Positions 6,405-31,772 of a DNA stretch of 31,830 bases are shown one piece after another. This DNA is from a virus. The stretch is from IMG/VR virus record IMGVR_UViG_3300009151_000238, positions 1-31,830 of that record. One strand, 5' to 3'. Every line of letters starts with the position of its first letter. Within the stretch, counting starts at the first letter, position 1. The notes beneath the pieces were generated by a model that had not been told where the DNA came from, made no database searches, and was given only the letters and a program-made list of their open reading frames with translations. The position numbers and the translations under genes are program-made.

Positions 6405-8117
6405 ATGTCGTCGAACTTTCCTAACGCGCTTGACTCGTTGACGAATCCGACGGCGACTGACTCGCTCGACTCTGCTAATGTTCCGCACGCTGATCAGCAT
6501 GCGAACGCGAATGACGCGATCGAAGCGATCGAGTCGACTCTGGGCACTAATCCTCAGGGCGCGTCTGCGACTGTGAAAGCTCGTCTCGATGCACTCGACA
6601 CGACTGTCGCTGACAAAGAGACACCAGCTGGCGCACAAGCGAAAGCTGACGACGCTAAGACGTCAGCGATCTCGACTGCTTCTGCTGACGCAACGACGAA
6701 AGCGAACGCCGCTCAAGCAGCTGCTCAAACTTTCGCGACGAACGCTGACACGACTGTCGCGTCGAACGCTTCGAGCGCACTGTCGACGCACGCTTCAGCG
6801 AGCACGAACGTGCATGGCATCGCTGACACGTCTGCTCTCGTTGTCAACACTGACACGCGTCTGACTGATACGCGCACCCCCACGAACGGCACTGTCACAG
6901 ATGCGAAGATCGACCCGTCTGGTCTCGCGCAGTCTTCGATCAACGGTGTCGCGATCGCAGCTTGGGCACCTTCGACTTCTTATGCGAAAGGTGCGCTCGT
7001 CTCGTATCAGGGCGTCGCGTATCGACGCATCTCTGCTGGAACTTCTGACACGACTTTCATGACTTCAATGTGGCAACAAGTTACGCCGACACCTTCAACT
7101 TCTGGCGCATCGAACTCTCTCGTCGCGACTGACTCGAGTGGCAACATCACAGCGACAACAGTCAACGCAAGCGTGCTCACAAACGGCGGCGGCACTGTCA
7201 CAGCTGGCGCATACGTTCAAGTCGGTACTGGTTCAGTCAATGGAAAGATCCAGCAACCTGCATCGGGCACGCCGACTCTGATCTTGCCTAGTGTTTCTGG
7301 GACTCTCGCTCTCGCTGACGGATCCAATCTTGCGAACAACGCAATCACGACAGCGAAGATCGCTGACAGTCAGATCACATCTGCAAAGATCGTCGACGCG
7401 ACAATCATCGACGCAGACATAAACGGCGCCGCCGCTATTGTTGCGACGAAGATCTCTGGCACTGCGAAGACTGCACTGAACCCTTCTTCTGATCAGCTCG
7501 CCCAAGAGTTTATGACTTCGACAGGAATGGACATTCAGTCTCGACTCTTAACTGCGAACACTCGTCAGCTTGGAAACAATGTCATGTATATCTCTTGGTT
7601 CGTTGCGACAAAGACTTTCACTTGCTCGACGATCACAGTCTCAGTCACTGTCGTCGGGGCACCATCTGCGCCGCCAGTCAATAACAAAGTGCAGGTCGGT
7701 CTCTTTCAACCTTCTGATGCTCAGGGTGCCTATTCTGCTTCTACGCCGACAAGTGCAAAGTGCTTGGCGATCGCGATCAAGAATGGCACAGCAACGATGG
7801 GCGGCTTCAACGCTGTGACGAGTGAGTCGTTCACTCTGGGAATCACAAAGACAGTCGGCTCAGCTGACTCTGGAACTGCGACGCCGATTTCGATAACAGC
7901 TGGGCAAGTTTATGGCGTCGGCTGTGTCGCATCTGCGACGACTGGATTCTCGACTGCGCCGTCTTTGGCGGCTTATGCAACTGGTGCAGCTGCGAGCGGT
8001 CTTGCACCATACACAGTCGGACAAGTCTCTCTGACTTTGCTGACTGATGTGCAGAAAGATCAGATCTTCACTGTGACAACTGGCGCGTCTGCGACTCAAT
8101 GGGCGCGTCTTTCGTGA
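6405..8117 (+). CDS. Fibre protein with chitin-binding-like module (candidate head fibre)
   Basis: A 570-aa fibrous protein. Residues 1-50 hold an actinophage fibre N-terminus (SLTNPTATDSL, HADQHANANDAIEAIES). Residues 50-135 are Ala/Thr-rich and probably a trimeric coiled coil. Residues 187-226 fit a CBM5/12 chitin-binding-like fold: W187, Y193, G196, V199, Y201, Y206 and W223 in expected order. Residues 311-351 repeat an I-x-x-A-K-I pattern typical of trimeric beta fibres. Residues about 365-570 are beta-rich, a likely jelly-roll adhesin tip. It probably binds cell-surface glycans. Unusually it is coded between capsid and connector genes, hence the head-fibre suggestion. A tail fibre remains possible. 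Confidence 0.8.
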   Translation: MSSNFPNALDSLTNPTATDSLDSANVPHADQHANANDAIEAIESTLGTNPQGASATVKARLDALDTTVADKETPAGAQAKADDAKTSAISTASADATTKANAAQAAAQTFATNADTTVASNASSALSTHASASTNVHGIADTSALVVNTDTRLTDTRTPTNGTVTDAKIDPSGLAQSSINGVAIAAWAPSTSYAKGALVSYQGVAYRRISAGTSDTTFMTSMWQQVTPTPSTSGASNSLVATDSSGNITATTVNASVLTNGGGTVTAGAYVQVGTGSVNGKIQQPASGTPTLILPSVSGTLALADGSNLANNAITTAKIADSQITSAKIVDATIIDADINGAAAIVATKISGTAKTALNPSSDQLAQEFMTSTGMDIQSRLLTANTRQLGNNVMYISWFVATKTFTCSTITVSVTVVGAPSAPPVNNKVQVGLFQPSDAQGAYSASTPTSAKCLAIAIKNGTATMGGFNAVTSESFTLGITKTVGSADSGTATPISITAGQVYGVGCVASATTGFSTAPSLAAYATGAAASGLAPYTVGQVSLTLLTDVQKDQIFTVTTGASATQWARLS

Positions 8118-22365: not shown

Positions 22366-22682
22366 GCACACAACATTCACAAGATCTCGTCGAGTTCGAT
22401 GCTCAAGTTGCTCACTGGATCTCTGAGTATCGACGTCTCAAGCGTGAGATCGCACGCATCAACGAAGCGATCGACATCGCTCGAGCACACATCGAGTCAG
22501 CACTCGGCGAAGCAAGTCTCGGTCTCGTCAATGGTGCGCCAGCAGTGCGCTTCAGCATCGTCGAGTCTGAACGTCTCGACATCAAGAAGGCTCGCGAAGT
22601 GTTGCCTGCGCAAGTGCTTGAGCTGCTTCTGAAGAAGTCTCAGAGTCGTCGCTTCGTCGTGCTAGAAGAAGGTGACATCTGA
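22362..22682 (+). CDS. Helical protein of the recombination/modification block
   Basis: A 106-aa protein with an N-terminal coiled helix (YRRLKREIARINEAIDIARAHI) and a C-terminal strand region (NGAPAVRFSIVESERLDIKKA, SRRFVVLEEG). The pattern resembles small proteins encoded with phage exonuclease/recombinase modules, where the G-x-PAVRF strand is typical. It may be a recombination accessory factor. Overlaps the next start (TGATG). Confidence 0.55.
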   Translation: MSTQHSQDLVEFDAQVAHWISEYRRLKREIARINEAIDIARAHIESALGEASLGLVNGAPAVRFSIVESERLDIKKAREVLPAQVLELLLKKSQSRRFVVLEEGDI

Positions 22683-23329
22683 TGAGACTTCTCGATCTCT
22701 ATTGCAAAGCAGGTGGCGCATCTACTGGATACGCAGACGCAGGCTTCGAAGTTGTCGGCGTCGACATCAGTCGTCAGAAGCGTTATCCGTTTGAGTTCAT
22801 TCAAGCAGATGCTCTCGAAGTGCTCGCTGACGTCGACTTCTTGAGCACGTTCGACGTGCTCGCAGGATCGCCGCCATGTCAGACGCACAGCATCACGAAG
22901 AATCTGCGCATCGCTCAGGGCAAGTCGACGACGAAGGTCGATCTGATTCCTCAGACGCGTGCAGCTTTCATCGCGTCTGGCAAGCCTTACGTCATCGAGA
23001 ACGTGCCTGGCGCGCCGATGATAGATCCGATCATTCTGTGTGGATCATCTTTCGGTCTTCGAGTTCGTCGTCATCGCCAGTTCGAGTCGAACGTCAAACT
23101 CGCTGAACTGCCTTGTGATCACAAGTCTCAGGGACGTCCTGTCGGTATCTATGGCTCAATGCGCGACGAGATTCCTCATGGCGGGAAGACTGCGACGTCG
23201 ATCGAAGAAGCACGTCATGCGATGGGCATCGAATATATGCTCTGGCATGAACTCGTCGAAGCGATCCCACCTGCTTACACACATCACATCGGCAAGCAGC
23301 TGATCGAGTTTCTGGGCGATGCATCATGA
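22682..23329 (+). CDS. Mini DNA cytosine-C5 methyltransferase
   Basis: A 215-aa protein of the short actinophage DNA methylase type. Motif I DLYCKAGGASTGY (5-17), motif IV SPPCQ (63-67; nucleophile Cys66), motif VI ENVPG (106-110) and FGL-x-x-RRHR (124-132, motif VIII) are present. The target-recognition region is very short, and motif X reads EAIPPAY rather than GNAVPP. It may methylate cytosine with low specificity or need a partner. No restriction partner lies nearby. Its stop overlaps the next start (ATGA). Confidence 0.85.
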   Translation: MRLLDLYCKAGGASTGYADAGFEVVGVDISRQKRYPFEFIQADALEVLADVDFLSTFDVLAGSPPCQTHSITKNLRIAQGKSTTKVDLIPQTRAAFIASGKPYVIENVPGAPMIDPIILCGSSFGLRVRRHRQFESNVKLAELPCDHKSQGRPVGIYGSMRDEIPHGGKTATSIEEARHAMGIEYMLWHELVEAIPPAYTHHIGKQLIEFLGDAS

Positions 23330-25279: not shown

Positions 25280-25425
25280 ACGACACGATCTGGATCTGCA
25301 ACTCGTGCTCATACTTTGGCACAGGACAACAGCAGCTCGACAAGCACTTGCAAGAGCACGCACTGGCGACACTGATGGCGCGAGACTTACAAGAAGAAGG
25401 ACAAGCAAGTGGACTCACTGTTTGA
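25276..25425 (+). CDS. C2H2 zinc-finger microprotein
   Basis: A 49-aa ORF with ATGA overlap upstream. Residues 8-28 fit a single classical C2H2 finger: Cys8-x2-Cys11-x12-His24-x3-His28, with Phe14 and Leu21 at core positions (Phe is one place earlier than usual). It overlaps by 17 bases the start of the cytosine methyltransferase gene, so expression is coupled. Possibly a DNA-binding or protein-binding helper of that enzyme (inference). Confidence 0.6.
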   Translation: MNDTIWICNSCSYFGTGQQQLDKHLQEHALATLMARDLQEEGQASGLTV

Positions 25426-26491
25426 AGACTTAAAAGACATCTACTCGATCGAAAGCATGATCGACATCAAGAAGCGCGACAACGGCTTGACAGCTGTTTC
25501 GACGTTCTCAGGTTGTGGCGGATCATCGTTAGGTCTCAAGATGGCTGGCTGGCGTATCGCTTACGCTGTCGAGTTCATCGAGCCAGCGCGTGACACATAC
25601 GCCGCAAACTTTCCAGACACATTCATCGACTCGCGCGACATTCGCGAGATCACTGCTGACGACATTCTGAGCAAGCTTGGACTACAAGTCGGCGAGCTTG
25701 ATCTCTTCGAAGGTTCGCCACCATGCTCGAGCTTCTCGACTGCGAACACGTCAAAGAACGCTCGAGTCGGCTCGATGAAGATCAAAGACTATTCAGACGG
25801 CGTTAAGCAGACGACTGACGATCTCTTCGACGAATGGCTTCGTCTGCTCGAAGGTCTCATGCCTAGAGCTTTCGTCGCTGAGAACGTCCCCGGCATGTTG
25901 CAAGCAGATGCGCTCGACATGCTTCACGACATCGTGACGCGCATGACAGCACTTGGCTATCACGTCGAAGCGAAGATCTACAACGTCGCCGCGTTCGGTT
26001 GTGCCACTGCTCGTCGTCGTCTGATCTTTCAGGGAATACGCAAAGATCAGGGCGTCGCACCTTTGCGCCCGTCGACTCTCGGTTGCAACGCGTACACACT
26101 GCGCGAAGCACTCGAAGCGATGACGCATGAGAGTCCGCAAGATGAGATCGACAAAGCGTTCGCGCAGATACCGTCTTACAAGCGCGAATGGAACAAGCTC
26201 AAGCCGGGCGAGGGATCTGACGTGATCTTTCAGATACAGCGATGCGCATGGGATAAGCCCGCGCCAACTTTCACAAAGTCTGGCGCGTACTCATCTGCGG
26301 ATCCTATGCACCCAGATGAGTGTCGCAAGTTCACAGCGACAGAGATCGCATGGCTCTCTGGCTTCCCAGCTGACTTCATTCTGACTGGGAATCCGTCTGA
26401 GCGATACGAGCGCATCGCGAGAGCAGTTCCGCCACCGTTGTATCGCGCAGTCGGTGCAGCTCTCGAGCAAGCGTTATCAGGTGAGCGATGA
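25409..26491 (+). CDS. DNA cytosine-C5 methyltransferase with altered motif X
   Basis: A 360-aa enzyme started at GTG 25409, preceded by GAAGAAGGAC. Motif I STFSGCGGSSLGL (31-43), motif IV SPPCSSFS (103-110, nucleophile Cys106), motif VI ENVPG (158-162), motif VIII ARRRL (201-205), a target-recognition region about 210-300, and motif IX TEIAWLSGFP (311-320). Motif X reads RIARAVPPP (335-343): the usual Gly-Asn is Ala337-Arg338. That position lies near the cofactor methyl group, so a change of cofactor is possible. It overlaps the CmoA-like gene by 4 bases (ATGA). Confidence 0.9.
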   Translation: MDSLFEDLKDIYSIESMIDIKKRDNGLTAVSTFSGCGGSSLGLKMAGWRIAYAVEFIEPARDTYAANFPDTFIDSRDIREITADDILSKLGLQVGELDLFEGSPPCSSFSTANTSKNARVGSMKIKDYSDGVKQTTDDLFDEWLRLLEGLMPRAFVAENVPGMLQADALDMLHDIVTRMTALGYHVEAKIYNVAAFGCATARRRLIFQGIRKDQGVAPLRPSTLGCNAYTLREALEAMTHESPQDEIDKAFAQIPSYKREWNKLKPGEGSDVIFQIQRCAWDKPAPTFTKSGAYSSADPMHPDECRKFTATEIAWLSGFPADFILTGNPSERYERIARAVPPPLYRAVGAALEQALSGER

Positions 26492-27150
26492 GCTTCGAGA
26501 TTCCGAACGAATGGACGTTCAAGAACAGCGAGATCGCACGCGACTTCGAGTCGCACGTTCGTGAGCAGCTGCCGTGGTACGAGCTTGCGACGTCAGCTGT
26601 CGCACAGATCGCACGTCACTACATCGGACAGAACGGCTATGTGTACGACGTCGGCGCATCGACTGGCAACATCGGTCGAGCTCTTGCTGACACGTTGACA
26701 GCACGCAAGGCGACACTGATCTCGATCGAAGAGTCGAAAGAGATGACTCTGCGCTTCAGTGCGCCCGGACATCTCGTCAACGAGCGCGCACAAGAGTACG
26801 ACTTCAAGAGCTTCGACTTTGCGACGTGCTTTCTTGTGCTCATGTTTCTTCGACCTGAAGAAGCTGTCGAGCTGCTCGATCGTCTGATCGCGAACATCGC
26901 ACTCGGCGGCGCTCTCGTCGTTGTCGAGCGAACACTGCCCCCAGACGGCTACGCAGGTTTAATCACGTCACGCATCACCATGAACGAGAAGCGACGCTCA
27001 GGCATCTCAGGCGACGCGATCGTCGACAAAGAGCTGTCACTCGCTGGGGTTCAACGACCCATCGCGAGCGACGTGTTCACGTCACGCGGTGGCGTCGAGT
27101 TCTTTCGCTTCGCTGACTTCGCTGGCTATTTATTCGAGCAGAAGTCATGA
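26488..27150 (+). CDS. CmoA-like SAM-dependent enzyme (candidate carboxy-SAM synthase or methyltransferase)
   Basis: A 220-aa class I SAM-binding protein. WTF (9-11), a helix ending LPWYE (28-32), motif I VYDVGASTGNIG (52-63), SFDFATCFLVLMFL (108-121), and GGALVVVE (140-147) follow the order of CmoA, the enzyme that makes carboxy-SAM from SAM and prephenate. Aligned by eye, CmoA Arg199 falls at Glu182, with Arg190 near, so the carboxylate-binding site is not proven. A plain methyltransferase is the main alternative. It overlaps both neighbours (ATGA), inside the modification block. Confidence 0.78.
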   Translation: MSFEIPNEWTFKNSEIARDFESHVREQLPWYELATSAVAQIARHYIGQNGYVYDVGASTGNIGRALADTLTARKATLISIEESKEMTLRFSAPGHLVNERAQEYDFKSFDFATCFLVLMFLRPEEAVELLDRLIANIALGGALVVVERTLPPDGYAGLITSRITMNEKRRSGISGDAIVDKELSLAGVQRPIASDVFTSRGGVEFFRFADFAGYLFEQKS

Positions 27151-27182
27151 GCTACATCAAACGACAACTAGAAGAGGACAAC

Positions 27183-27743
27183 ATGAAAGACAAGCAACTA
27201 CTCATCGGACTCTCAGGCTATGCGCAGTCCGGCAAAGACACAGTCGCCGACTATCTGCGCGAGCATCATGACTTCATTCGAGTCTCGTTCGCTGATCAGA
27301 TCAAACAGGCTCTCTATGTGCTGAACCCGATGATCGCGCACGATGCTCGCGTCGACTATCTTCAGACGTATCTCATGAACTCTTCATGGGACGAGATGAA
27401 GCAGAACAAAGAAGTCAGACGACTGCTTCAACGACTGGGCACACAAGTCGGGCGCAACTTTATCGACGAGAACATCTGGCTCGATCGTGTCTTCAAGTCG
27501 AAGCTGTTCGACAGCACTGCGAGCATCGTGATCACTGACGTGCGCTTTGAGAATGAAGCAGACGAGATCAGACAGCGAGGCGGCTTCATCTTGCGCATCG
27601 AGCGCGAAGGTGTCCATGCATACAACAGACACGCGAGCGAGACTGCTCTTGACGACTACGACTTCGACGTGATCGTGCCCAACAACGAGTCGATCGCTGA
27701 CTTGTATTCGAACGTCGATCAGATCGTGAAACTGCTGTCATGA
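27183..27743 (+). CDS. Deoxynucleoside monophosphate kinase
   Basis: A 186-aa kinase of the phage dNMP kinase type. The P-loop is GYAQSGKDT (12-20); later DVRFENEADEIRQRGG marks the base/phosphate side as in T4 gp1-like enzymes. It phosphorylates dNMPs, possibly including modified ones. I start at ATG 27183, after AGAGGACAAC, the same ribosome-site form used elsewhere. An in-frame ATG at 27147 overlaps the previous stop and would add 12 residues. Confidence 0.88.
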   Translation: MKDKQLLIGLSGYAQSGKDTVADYLREHHDFIRVSFADQIKQALYVLNPMIAHDARVDYLQTYLMNSSWDEMKQNKEVRRLLQRLGTQVGRNFIDENIWLDRVFKSKLFDSTASIVITDVRFENEADEIRQRGGFILRIEREGVHAYNRHASETALDDYDFDVIVPNNESIADLYSNVDQIVKLLS

Positions 27744-29923
27744 ACGAAGCGCAGACACAGACATCGTCATCGAACGACATTCTCAGAGCTGCTCTCGAGT
27801 TTCGCAACGCTGGCATCTCAGTCATACCAGTTAAAGCAGACGGCTCGAAAGCATCGCTCGTCGCTTGGAAAGAGTTTCAGTCTCGACTCGCGACGCGTGA
27901 CGAGCTGCTCGAGTGGTTCATCGACTCGCAAGGCTTCGCAGTCATCACAGGTTCGATCTCTGGCAACTTGGAGATGCTCGAACTAGAAGGACGCGCAGTC
28001 GAGTCAGGCTTGTTTCAAGAAGGGCACGACATCGCGATCAACTCTGGACTGGAAGACGTCTGGCAGATCTTGTCGCAGACGTATCACGAGCAGACACCAT
28101 CGGGCGGCGTTCATTGGTTATATCGCATCAGTGACGCGCCAGTACCACGCAACACGAAACTCGCACGAAAGCCGGGCGCGAATGACTCTGTCGACGTACT
28201 GATCGAGACTCGAGGTGAAGGCGGCTATGTCATCGTCGCACCAAGTCACGGCAAGACTCACGCGTCAGAGCGTGCATGGATACGTCTCAACAATTCGACA
28301 GTCGAGTCGATCGCGACGATCACGTTCGAGCAGAGAGAAGCACTGCACGACATCTTCAGAGCACTCGATCAGATGCCACGCGTCGAAGCGATCACTCAAA
28401 GCATGACAGTGCGTGACAGTGACGAGCTGCGCCCCGGTGATGACTTCAACGCTCGAGCACACTGGGAAGACATACTCGTCGGCTGGACTCGTGTCTATCA
28501 ACGAGCAGATGGACAAGTCTTCTGGCGTCGACCCGGTAAGTCTGTCGGCGTCTCAGCATCGACTCACGCGAACGACGCGGACAACTTGTACGTCTGGACG
28601 ACGTCGACAGCGTTCGAGTCTGAGAAGTATTATTCGAAGTTCGCGGCGTATGCACTGCTCAAGTGTGCTGGAGACTATGCGCGAGCAGCTTCAGATCTTC
28701 GACGACTCGGCTATGGTGGCGCGCAACTTCGAGTCGTGACAGAAGATGTCGTCAAGCTGACACCGTTATCAGACGTTCTCAAAGCGCATCACAGCGGCAG
28801 AGAACAGATCGACGATGAAGAAGACGATGAAGCGATACTCGCCGCTCTGAGACGCGCTCAGCTGTTTGCAGTCGAACTCGAGACGCAACAGATACGTCGA
28901 GAAGTGAAGCGTCGACTCGACGACGAAGACATGCTCGCAAGTTTCAGACAGCCGAGCTACATTCTGAGCGCGCGAGACGAGCTCGATCTGCCAGACGAAG
29001 AGACAGCATGGCTCGTCGAAGATCTGTTTCCGACAGGTGCGAACATTCTGCTGACAGCTGCATACAAGTCGGGCAAGACGACACTCGTCAACAATCTCGT
29101 GAAGAGTCTCGTCGATGAAGAGTCATTCTTGAATCGCTTCAACGTCGCCCAGCACGACGGGCGCGTCGTCATCTTCAACTATGAAGTCGAAGCGCGACAG
29201 TATCGCCACTGGGTCAGAGACATGAACATCAAGAACTTGGACAAGATCACACTCGTGCATCTGCGCGGCTTACGCATGCCAGTGTCAGTCGAACACGTCG
29301 AAGACAAGATCGTCGACATGCTCACAGAGCTCGACTGTCAGACATGGATCGTCGACCCGTTCGCACGCGCATTCGTCGGCTCTGGTGAAGAGAACAGCAA
29401 CTCAGACGTCGGACGCTTCTTAGACACACTTGACGTCATCAAAGAGCGAGCAGGTGTCAAGAATCTCGTGCTACCTGCACACACTGGACGAGCACAAGAG
29501 CACGGCATTGAACGCGCACGCGGTGCAACACGACTCGACGATCATGCAGACGTTCGCTGGCTACTCACAAAGCAAGACTCTGGTGATCGCTTCTTCAGTG
29601 CATCAGGACGCGACGTCGAACTCGAAGAGCAGCTGCTCAGCTTCGACACAGAGACGCGCAAGATGAGCATCGCTCGAGCAACAACACGCAAAGCACACTC
29701 ACGCGAACGCATCGAACAGCGAATCGTCGACTATCTACGCGCCAACCCAGCGACAAAGTCATCAGAGCTCGAACGATCAGTCGGTGGAAACGCCGCCGAC
29801 TTCAGAAACGCTCGCGAGCAACTACTGCGAGAAGGACTCATCAGATACGACGATTTAGGACCGACAAAGCTCTGGTCGACGACAGACGTCAAAGCGTTCA
29901 GAGAGACAGCGAGCGCATCATGA
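27740..29923 (+). CDS. Primase-polymerase / RecA-like helicase fusion
   Basis: A 727-aa replication protein. Residues about 15-200 are a prim-pol domain: GISVIPVKADG, LEMLELEG (78-84), TPSGGVHWLYR (119-129) and ETRGEGGYVIVAPS. The usual metal-binding Asp-x-Asp appears as Glu81-x-Glu83. Residues 430-620 form a RecA-like ATPase with Walker A TAAYKSGKTT (439-448) and Walker B WIVDPFARA (536-544). A winged-helix-like end follows (SSELERSVGGNAADFRNA). It likely primes and unwinds phage DNA; no phage DNA polymerase is present, so host polymerase is presumably used. Confidence 0.88.
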   Translation: MNEAQTQTSSSNDILRAALEFRNAGISVIPVKADGSKASLVAWKEFQSRLATRDELLEWFIDSQGFAVITGSISGNLEMLELEGRAVESGLFQEGHDIAINSGLEDVWQILSQTYHEQTPSGGVHWLYRISDAPVPRNTKLARKPGANDSVDVLIETRGEGGYVIVAPSHGKTHASERAWIRLNNSTVESIATITFEQREALHDIFRALDQMPRVEAITQSMTVRDSDELRPGDDFNARAHWEDILVGWTRVYQRADGQVFWRRPGKSVGVSASTHANDADNLYVWTTSTAFESEKYYSKFAAYALLKCAGDYARAASDLRRLGYGGAQLRVVTEDVVKLTPLSDVLKAHHSGREQIDDEEDDEAILAALRRAQLFAVELETQQIRREVKRRLDDEDMLASFRQPSYILSARDELDLPDEETAWLVEDLFPTGANILLTAAYKSGKTTLVNNLVKSLVDEESFLNRFNVAQHDGRVVIFNYEVEARQYRHWVRDMNIKNLDKITLVHLRGLRMPVSVEHVEDKIVDMLTELDCQTWIVDPFARAFVGSGEENSNSDVGRFLDTLDVIKERAGVKNLVLPAHTGRAQEHGIERARGATRLDDHADVRWLLTKQDSGDRFFSASGRDVELEEQLLSFDTETRKMSIARATTRKAHSRERIEQRIVDYLRANPATKSSELERSVGGNAADFRNAREQLLREGLIRYDDLGPTKLWSTTDVKAFRETASAS

Positions 29924-31439: not shown

Positions 31440-31772
31440 GTGTCACTCCTCTCTTGTCTCGACTGTGGCGTCGTCACTCAAAGATCACGATGTAACTCAT
31501 GCGCAGACATCGCACGCGCAAGATACGCGCCACGAGCAAGAGTCAGAGCAAGCAGCTCAGCACGCGGATACGACTCGAAGTGGCGCATCATCAGACTGCA
31601 AGTGCTCGAGCGCGATCGCTGGACATGTTACAAGTGCCAGAAACATCTCATCGGCACAGACGCGACAGTCGATCATCTGACGCCGATCAGTCAAGATCCC
31701 AGCAGACGACTCGACAAGACGAATCTCGCCGCATGCTGTCGATCATGCAACTCTCGAAAGCGCGACAAGTGA
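31440..31772 (+). CDS. HNH endonuclease
   Basis: A 110-aa protein started at GTG 31440. HNH pattern: CYKC (about 63-66), the catalytic pair DHL in TVDHLTPISQ, Asn in KTNLAACC, and a second Cys pair CCRSCNSRKR; a further Cys pair sits at CLDCG near the start. Genes of this type lie beside terS in HK97-like cos phages and assist terminase cutting; across the ends of this window it would adjoin terS. Confidence 0.88.
   Translation: MSLLSCLDCGVVTQRSRCNSCADIARARYAPRARVRASSSARGYDSKWRIIRLQVLERDRWTCYKCQKHLIGTDATVDHLTPISQDPSRRLDKTNLAACCRSCNSRKRDK

Follow-up and report, generated by a model that had tools for sequence, protein, structure and literature searches.

The phage DNA of IMG/VR record IMGVR_UViG_3300009151_000238 (positions 1-31830, classed as linear by IMG/VR; all 31,830 nucleotides are hereafter called the window) carries a cytosine C5-methyltransferase gene with an unusual motif X that overlaps a gene resembling cmoA. 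The pair raises the question of whether this phage makes its own carboxy-SAM (Cx-SAM) and uses it to carboxymethylate its cytosines. Natural formation of 5-carboxymethylcytosine (5cxmC) by CmoA and CmoX has been known since December 2025, when the CmoA-CmoX-CmoY system of Synechococcus phage S-B43 was proven biochemically and crystallographically (Nature Communications, 7 December 2025, PMC12783734; PDB 8yf3). In S-B43, CmoA makes carboxy-SAM, CmoX carboxymethylates cytosine at C5, and CmoY then ligates glycine to the product (PMC12783734). Arg350 of SpCmoX, which replaces Asn304 of M.HhaI, contacts the Cx-SAM carboxylate; the wild-type enzyme uses only Cx-SAM and needs a GC target (PMC12783734). 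Based on homology, fold, the key residue, gene overlap, clade membership and genomic association, we consider it very probable that the two window genes form a DNA carboxymethylation module of the CmoX-CmoA type, with plain 5cxmC as its likely end product. What the window contributes is a ligase-free pair, a divergent CmoA clade, an unexplained purge of CC/GG and an actinophage-like backbone.

The features of the locus are collected in Table 1. The cmoX-like ORF begins with a GTG codon preceded by AAGAAGGA, which resembles a ribosome-binding site. Four-base overlaps chain cmoX, cmoA, the deoxynucleoside monophosphate (dNMP) kinase-like gene and the primase gene (26488-26491, 27147-27150 and 27740-27743), the first of them, an ATGA, being the overlap that the original prediction had reported between the two leading genes. 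Because these overlaps follow one another, the four genes probably share one transcript.

Table 1. Positions of the predicted carboxymethylation genes, their key codons and the flanking genes in the window
Feature	Position	Strand	Evidence
cmoX-like gene, DNA cytosine C5-carboxymethyltransferase (predicted), 360 aa	25409..26491	+	Pfam DNA_methylase; 8yf3 match; Arg clade
Catalytic Cys106 codon in SPPC	25724..25726	+	Aligned with SpCmoX Cys98; invariant in 41 relatives
Arg338 codon, motif X, carboxylate-binding position (by alignment)	26420..26422	+	Opposite SpCmoX Arg350
ATGA overlap, cmoX stop / cmoA start	26488..26491	+	Sequence
cmoA-like gene, carboxy-SAM synthase (predicted), 220 aa, divergent clade	26488..27150	+	TIGR00740, fold, family profile
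Glu182 codon, opposite E. coli CmoA Arg199	27031..27033	+	Alignment
Arg190 codon, conserved basic residue of divergent CmoA clade	27055..27057	+	Alignment of homologues
Deoxynucleoside monophosphate kinase-like gene	27147..27743	+	Pfam DNMK E=1.6e-26; ATGA overlap with cmoA; absent from syntenic relatives
Primase/helicase, right border of variable slot	27740..29923	+	Pfam Prim-Pol, AAA_25; kept in L341, L342, L344, L345

The 360-aa protein matches Pfam DNA_methylase (E=1.4e-46) and is a complete C5-methyltransferase, with Cys106 in SPPC and with the ENV and RxR motifs. Its motif X (SERYERIARAVPPPLYR, in the context YERIARAVPPP) reads Ala337-Arg338 rather than the Gly-Asn of ordinary Asn-type enzymes, the arginine standing where asparagine is usual. 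Both the completeness of the enzyme and the arginine at this position, as originally proposed, were confirmed by Pfam and by the sequence itself. When PDB sequences were searched with the protein, SpCmoX (8yf3) was the top match at E=1.1e-51, followed by a second at 3.3e-18, and Arg338 was aligned with SpCmoX Arg350, so that the window enzyme has the C5-methyltransferase core with SPPC and motif X arginine that characterize SpCmoX. Its AlphaFold model (pLDDT 88.5) also had 8yf3 as top fold match (E=2e-28, TM 0.79).

For the 220-aa protein, the best NCBIfam model was CmoA TIGR00740 (E=7.6e-14, 52 bits), below the curated cut-off of 193.3. This cut-off was dropped as an uninformative test of membership for phage CmoA, because SpCmoA, which is proven active, falls under it as well (115.6 vs. 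193.3). A family profile of the protein matched E. coli CmoA (4gek) in the PDB at E=1.8e-62, with the first non-CmoA entry at 1e-24. The top fold matches of its AlphaFold model (pLDDT 93.3) were 4gek, 4iwn and 1im8 (TM 0.79-0.87), with 4gek best at TM 0.87, a CmoA fold that bears out the original CmoA-like call. In E. coli CmoA, Arg199 salt-bridges the carboxylate (PMC3663124); the window protein has Glu182 there, with Arg190 eight residues further on, and the original prediction had counted this against itself. The alignment behind that counter-argument is correct, but the objection falls, because proven SpCmoA likewise aligns a glutamate with Arg199. Tyr31 occupies the position of E. coli Tyr39, which is tyrosine in every aligned homologue. 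The protein has Ala126 at a position that is arginine in 236 of 241 aligned sequences, and this departure from a nearly invariant residue calls for some caution in the CmoA assignment.

In the survey, we examined 80 IMG/VR loci found by a CmoX profile, 80 found by a CmoA profile and 80 genome loci, together with a control set of 80 IMG/VR loci found by a profile of Asn-type phage C5-methyltransferases. Each locus was scored for its motif X residue and neighboring genes, with CmoA counted within 4 kb. CmoA was present beside 155 of 160 Arg-type enzymes vs. 2 of 96 Asn-type enzymes (Fisher p = 5e-61, which is no true probability since the sequences are related), and in both Asn-type cases the locus also holds a separate Arg-type gene. 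Of the five Arg-type enzymes that lacked CmoA, four lie near contig ends, including one where CmoA is partly cut off, and the fifth, in Erwinia phage Y3, has its CmoA elsewhere in the genome. Among loci found through CmoA alone, all 51 scorable methyltransferases were Arg-type and none was Asn-type. The co-occurrence of motif X arginine and CmoA that the original prediction had proposed to survey is therefore real, and Arg-type enzymes are not common away from a CmoA neighbor. This Asn-controlled survey independently backs a new rule, that motif X arginine with a CmoA neighbor marks DNA carboxymethylation.

The C5-methyltransferase tree was computed without the motif X columns by a quick search and has numerous weak inner branches. 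All Arg-type enzymes formed one well-supported clade (SH-aLRT 96) that includes SpCmoX and the window CmoX; the latter thus sits with SpCmoX and away from the Asn-type enzymes, in line with its best matches in the PDB sequence and fold searches. Motif X arginine is thus a trait of one C5-methyltransferase clade, beyond chance. The lone Asn-type enzyme within the clade, L031, is a reversion, and no CmoA was found on its 10.5-kb contig; nor was one found in the complete 113-kb genome of Aphanizomenon phage CL131, which holds the closest Asn-type outgroup.

The end product depends on whether a ligase accompanies the pair. No match to the Asn-synthetase-like ligase family (PF00733) was found in the window record, and neither a Pfam scan nor a CmoY profile found CmoY among the window ORFs, which therefore do not make up a CmoA-CmoX-CmoY set. 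The window has terS (72-533) near one end and an HNH gene (31440-31772) near the other, and because these two genes are adjacent in L343 and L346, the record, judged by gene order, is very nearly a whole genome. Since this almost entire genome yielded no CmoY, the modification in this phage likely stops at plain 5cxmC; IMG/VR classes the record as linear, and a ligase in a missing piece is conceivable. The CmoA-like protein would convert SAM to carboxy-SAM, with prephenate as the presumed co-substrate. Cys106 of CmoX would then attack cytosine while Arg338 would hold the carboxylate of the cofactor, and 5cxmC would be left in the phage DNA, where it would most likely shield the DNA against host nucleases.

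A different outcome, which we regard as rather unlikely, is that 5cxmC serves only as a handle and that its carboxylate is joined to an amine by some as yet unrecognised enzyme of the phage or its host, giving a hypermodified base in virion DNA. The virion DNA of S-B43 held only the glycine amide and no 5cxmC, and ligase clusters with other substrates exist (PMC12783734); several genes of the window lack an assigned function. On the other hand, the 31.3- and 30.5-kb contigs carrying the closest CmoX resemble the window in having no detected Asn-synthetase-like protein, and ligase-less pairs are common, with 94 of 155 CmoX-CmoA loci lacking CmoY within 4 kb. With plain 5cxmC as the preferred end product, the window suggests that natural DNA may exist whose final base is 5cxmC itself.

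The identity of the cofactor was considered in the light of the CmoA homologues. Counting from the invariant Lys181, at least one of positions +1, +5 and +9 is basic in 207 of 211 homologues, and the four exceptions compare with 44 expected if the positions were independent, a statistic inflated by kinship of the homologues. Two of the three positions are basic at once in only 10 cases. The window CmoA is of the +9 type, with Arg190 as the basic residue, and the +9 clade is a single deep, well-supported branch (support 100, length 1.62) with the hallmark residues Arg25/Trp30/Arg162/Glu182/Arg190. The window thus points to a CmoA clade without the canonical Arg199. From the model, Arg25 and Arg162 would lie in helices equivalent to the E. 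coli CmoA lid, with Arg190 just past the last one. The length of this branch, the glutamate for Arg199, the clade-specific residues on or beside the lid helices and the fact that we found no biochemically tested member of the clade in the literature would fit a synthase of a different carboxylated SAM analogue, whose group CmoX would then transfer. We judge this improbable, as canonical and divergent CmoA alternate among related CmoX, with 11 changes over the CmoX tree, at least three of which are forced by well-supported branches; the window CmoX is sister to that of L013 (SH-aLRT 97, well-supported), whose CmoA is canonical. Such alternation is expected if both types make the same cofactor, and we read it as an exchange of partners that do so.

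That the enzyme makes ordinary 5-methylcytosine from SAM, with Arg338 and the neighboring gene incidental and the 220-aa protein methylating another substrate such as tRNA, is very improbable: weak NCBIfam scores, matches to generic methyltransferase families and a PHROG family labelled tRNA methyltransferase would agree with it, but clade, key residue, CmoA fold, the linkage counted above and the failure of SpCmoX to accept SAM (PMC12783734) all argue against it. The central proposal of the original prediction, natural carboxymethylation in which a CmoA-like protein makes carboxy-SAM for an Arg-type enzyme, is supported, as the pair matches the proven one of S-B43 and the window enzyme is clearly related to SpCmoX.

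The composition of the window is unusual. Observed/expected ratios on the plus strand were 0.28 for CC and 0.49 for GG (symmetric 0.38) and were low in all 4-kb segments, and C occupied 28 of 808 fourfold sites preceding C vs. 964 of 2765 preceding other bases. Deamination was rejected as the cause, and the avoidance looks like selection on DNA, because all three other bases, not T alone, take the place of C at fourfold sites. Symmetric CC/GG ratios were 0.84-0.88 in relatives without the cmoX-cmoA pair, and 0.93 in L343 and 0.80 in L346, where presence of the pair is not established. Ratios of 0.39 and 0.43 were found in L118 and L108, whose CmoX is 63% identical to that of the window (all other CmoX are about 45% identical or less) and whose TerL is 53% identical. 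Values below 0.6 occurred in 10 of 154 CmoX loci vs. 0 of 80 control loci. Absence of the ligase was rejected as a general cause of CC depletion, the medians of CmoX loci with and without CmoY being 0.88 vs. 0.87 (p=0.05). These data suggest a link between the CmoX subclade of the window, L118 and L108 and the purge of CC/GG, the chief competing explanation being a pressure from a shared host. As a tentative and somewhat doubtful extension, the CmoX of this subclade may carboxymethylate so broadly, and free of a ligase, that adjacent cytosines are not tolerated or handled and have been purged genome-wide; no earlier natural genomes would then have had plain 5cxmC as their final base, and the modification would be fed by a putative second type of carboxy-SAM synthase. 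The CC/GG avoidance offers a testable link of base modification to genome composition.

The TerL of the window is 51% identical to that of Pontimonas phage phiPsal1, which has a complete 31-kb circular genome, and a WhiB gene is present; from these genes, the backbone appears actinobacterial and the host is probably an actinobacterium. Megablast of window positions 1-25000 against phages gave no match, and a tRNA search of the window found none. The relatives L341, L342, L344 and L345 share the exonuclease, g159 and primase genes, plus downstream genes where the contig extends. In the place of cmoX, cmoA and the dNMP kinase-like gene, L341 has a PAPS-reductase-like gene (6712-7554, phrog_424), which is possibly another DNA-modification gene, L342 has an Asn-type C5-methyltransferase spread across two frames that overlap and no CmoA, and L344 and L345 have little. 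The region looks like a swappable slot, in which the dNMP kinase-like gene sits together with cmoX and cmoA. Elsewhere in the window, positions 22682-23329 encode another, short C5-methyltransferase-like protein (215 aa), whose family occurs in about 300 phages, chiefly those infecting actinobacteria or Paenibacillus. On visual inspection, motif X of this protein is VEAIPPAYT, where glutamate takes the asparagine position.

Other CmoA-linked arrangements were also observed. In Staphylococcus phage vB-SscS-F1 (L006:7983-10501) and an SPbeta-like locus (L009:5989-7688), CmoA lies beside a C5-methyltransferase without motif X arginine (VGG) and with GSPC in place of SPPC, and in vB-SscS-F1 an Asn-synthetase-like ligase lies between the two; such enzymes would escape a search requiring SPPC and Arg350. 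A second CmoA-linked family, at about 30 loci, is a fusion of about 505 aa of ParB_N with a Rossmann methyltransferase-like domain (phrog_5475, no assigned function; motifs DFGxGxxxE, FEPF/Y and SSVLNSVPF). It lies upstream of CmoA, often overlapping it, mostly with no C5-methyltransferase nearby and sometimes with a HAD-like gene in between (L296:4487-6007, L295:4478-5998, L291:4442-6001, L294, L290, L292, L120, L134, L116, L169-L171, L008:702-2237 of Gordonia phage Evaa, and others). The S-B43 study reports that it found no candidate carboxymethyltransferases for N6 of adenine or N4 of cytosine (PMC12783734); the fusion could be a new Cx-SAM-dependent transferase.

Among known systems, E. 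coli CmoA (4gek/4iwn; PMC3663124) shares its fold and the Tyr39 position with the window CmoA, which differs in Glu182 for Arg199, in having no CmoB and in its DNA rather than tRNA context. In engineered M.MpeI N374K, a basic residue for the motif X asparagine permits use of Cx-SAM (PMC12783734). The window enzyme likewise has a basic residue there, whereas M.MpeI N374K is a laboratory mutant with lysine, a CG target and no dedicated cofactor gene. Moraxella phage Mcat8 (KR093632, where the pair is unannotated) resembles the window in having CmoX followed by a CmoA (46.6% identical) that overlaps it and comes from the divergent clade, with no annotated ligase beside the pair, but its pair adjoins the terminase, its host is different, and its CC/GG ratio of 0.96 shows no depletion. 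Unlike S-B43, the window has no CmoY, places CmoX before CmoA with an ATGA overlap, carries a CmoA of another clade (about 19% identical to SpCmoA) and has a backbone related to actinophages; like S-B43, it has an Arg-type C5-methyltransferase, about 35% identical to SpCmoX, with SPPC and with Arg338 in the place of Arg350, that adjoins a CmoA homologue.
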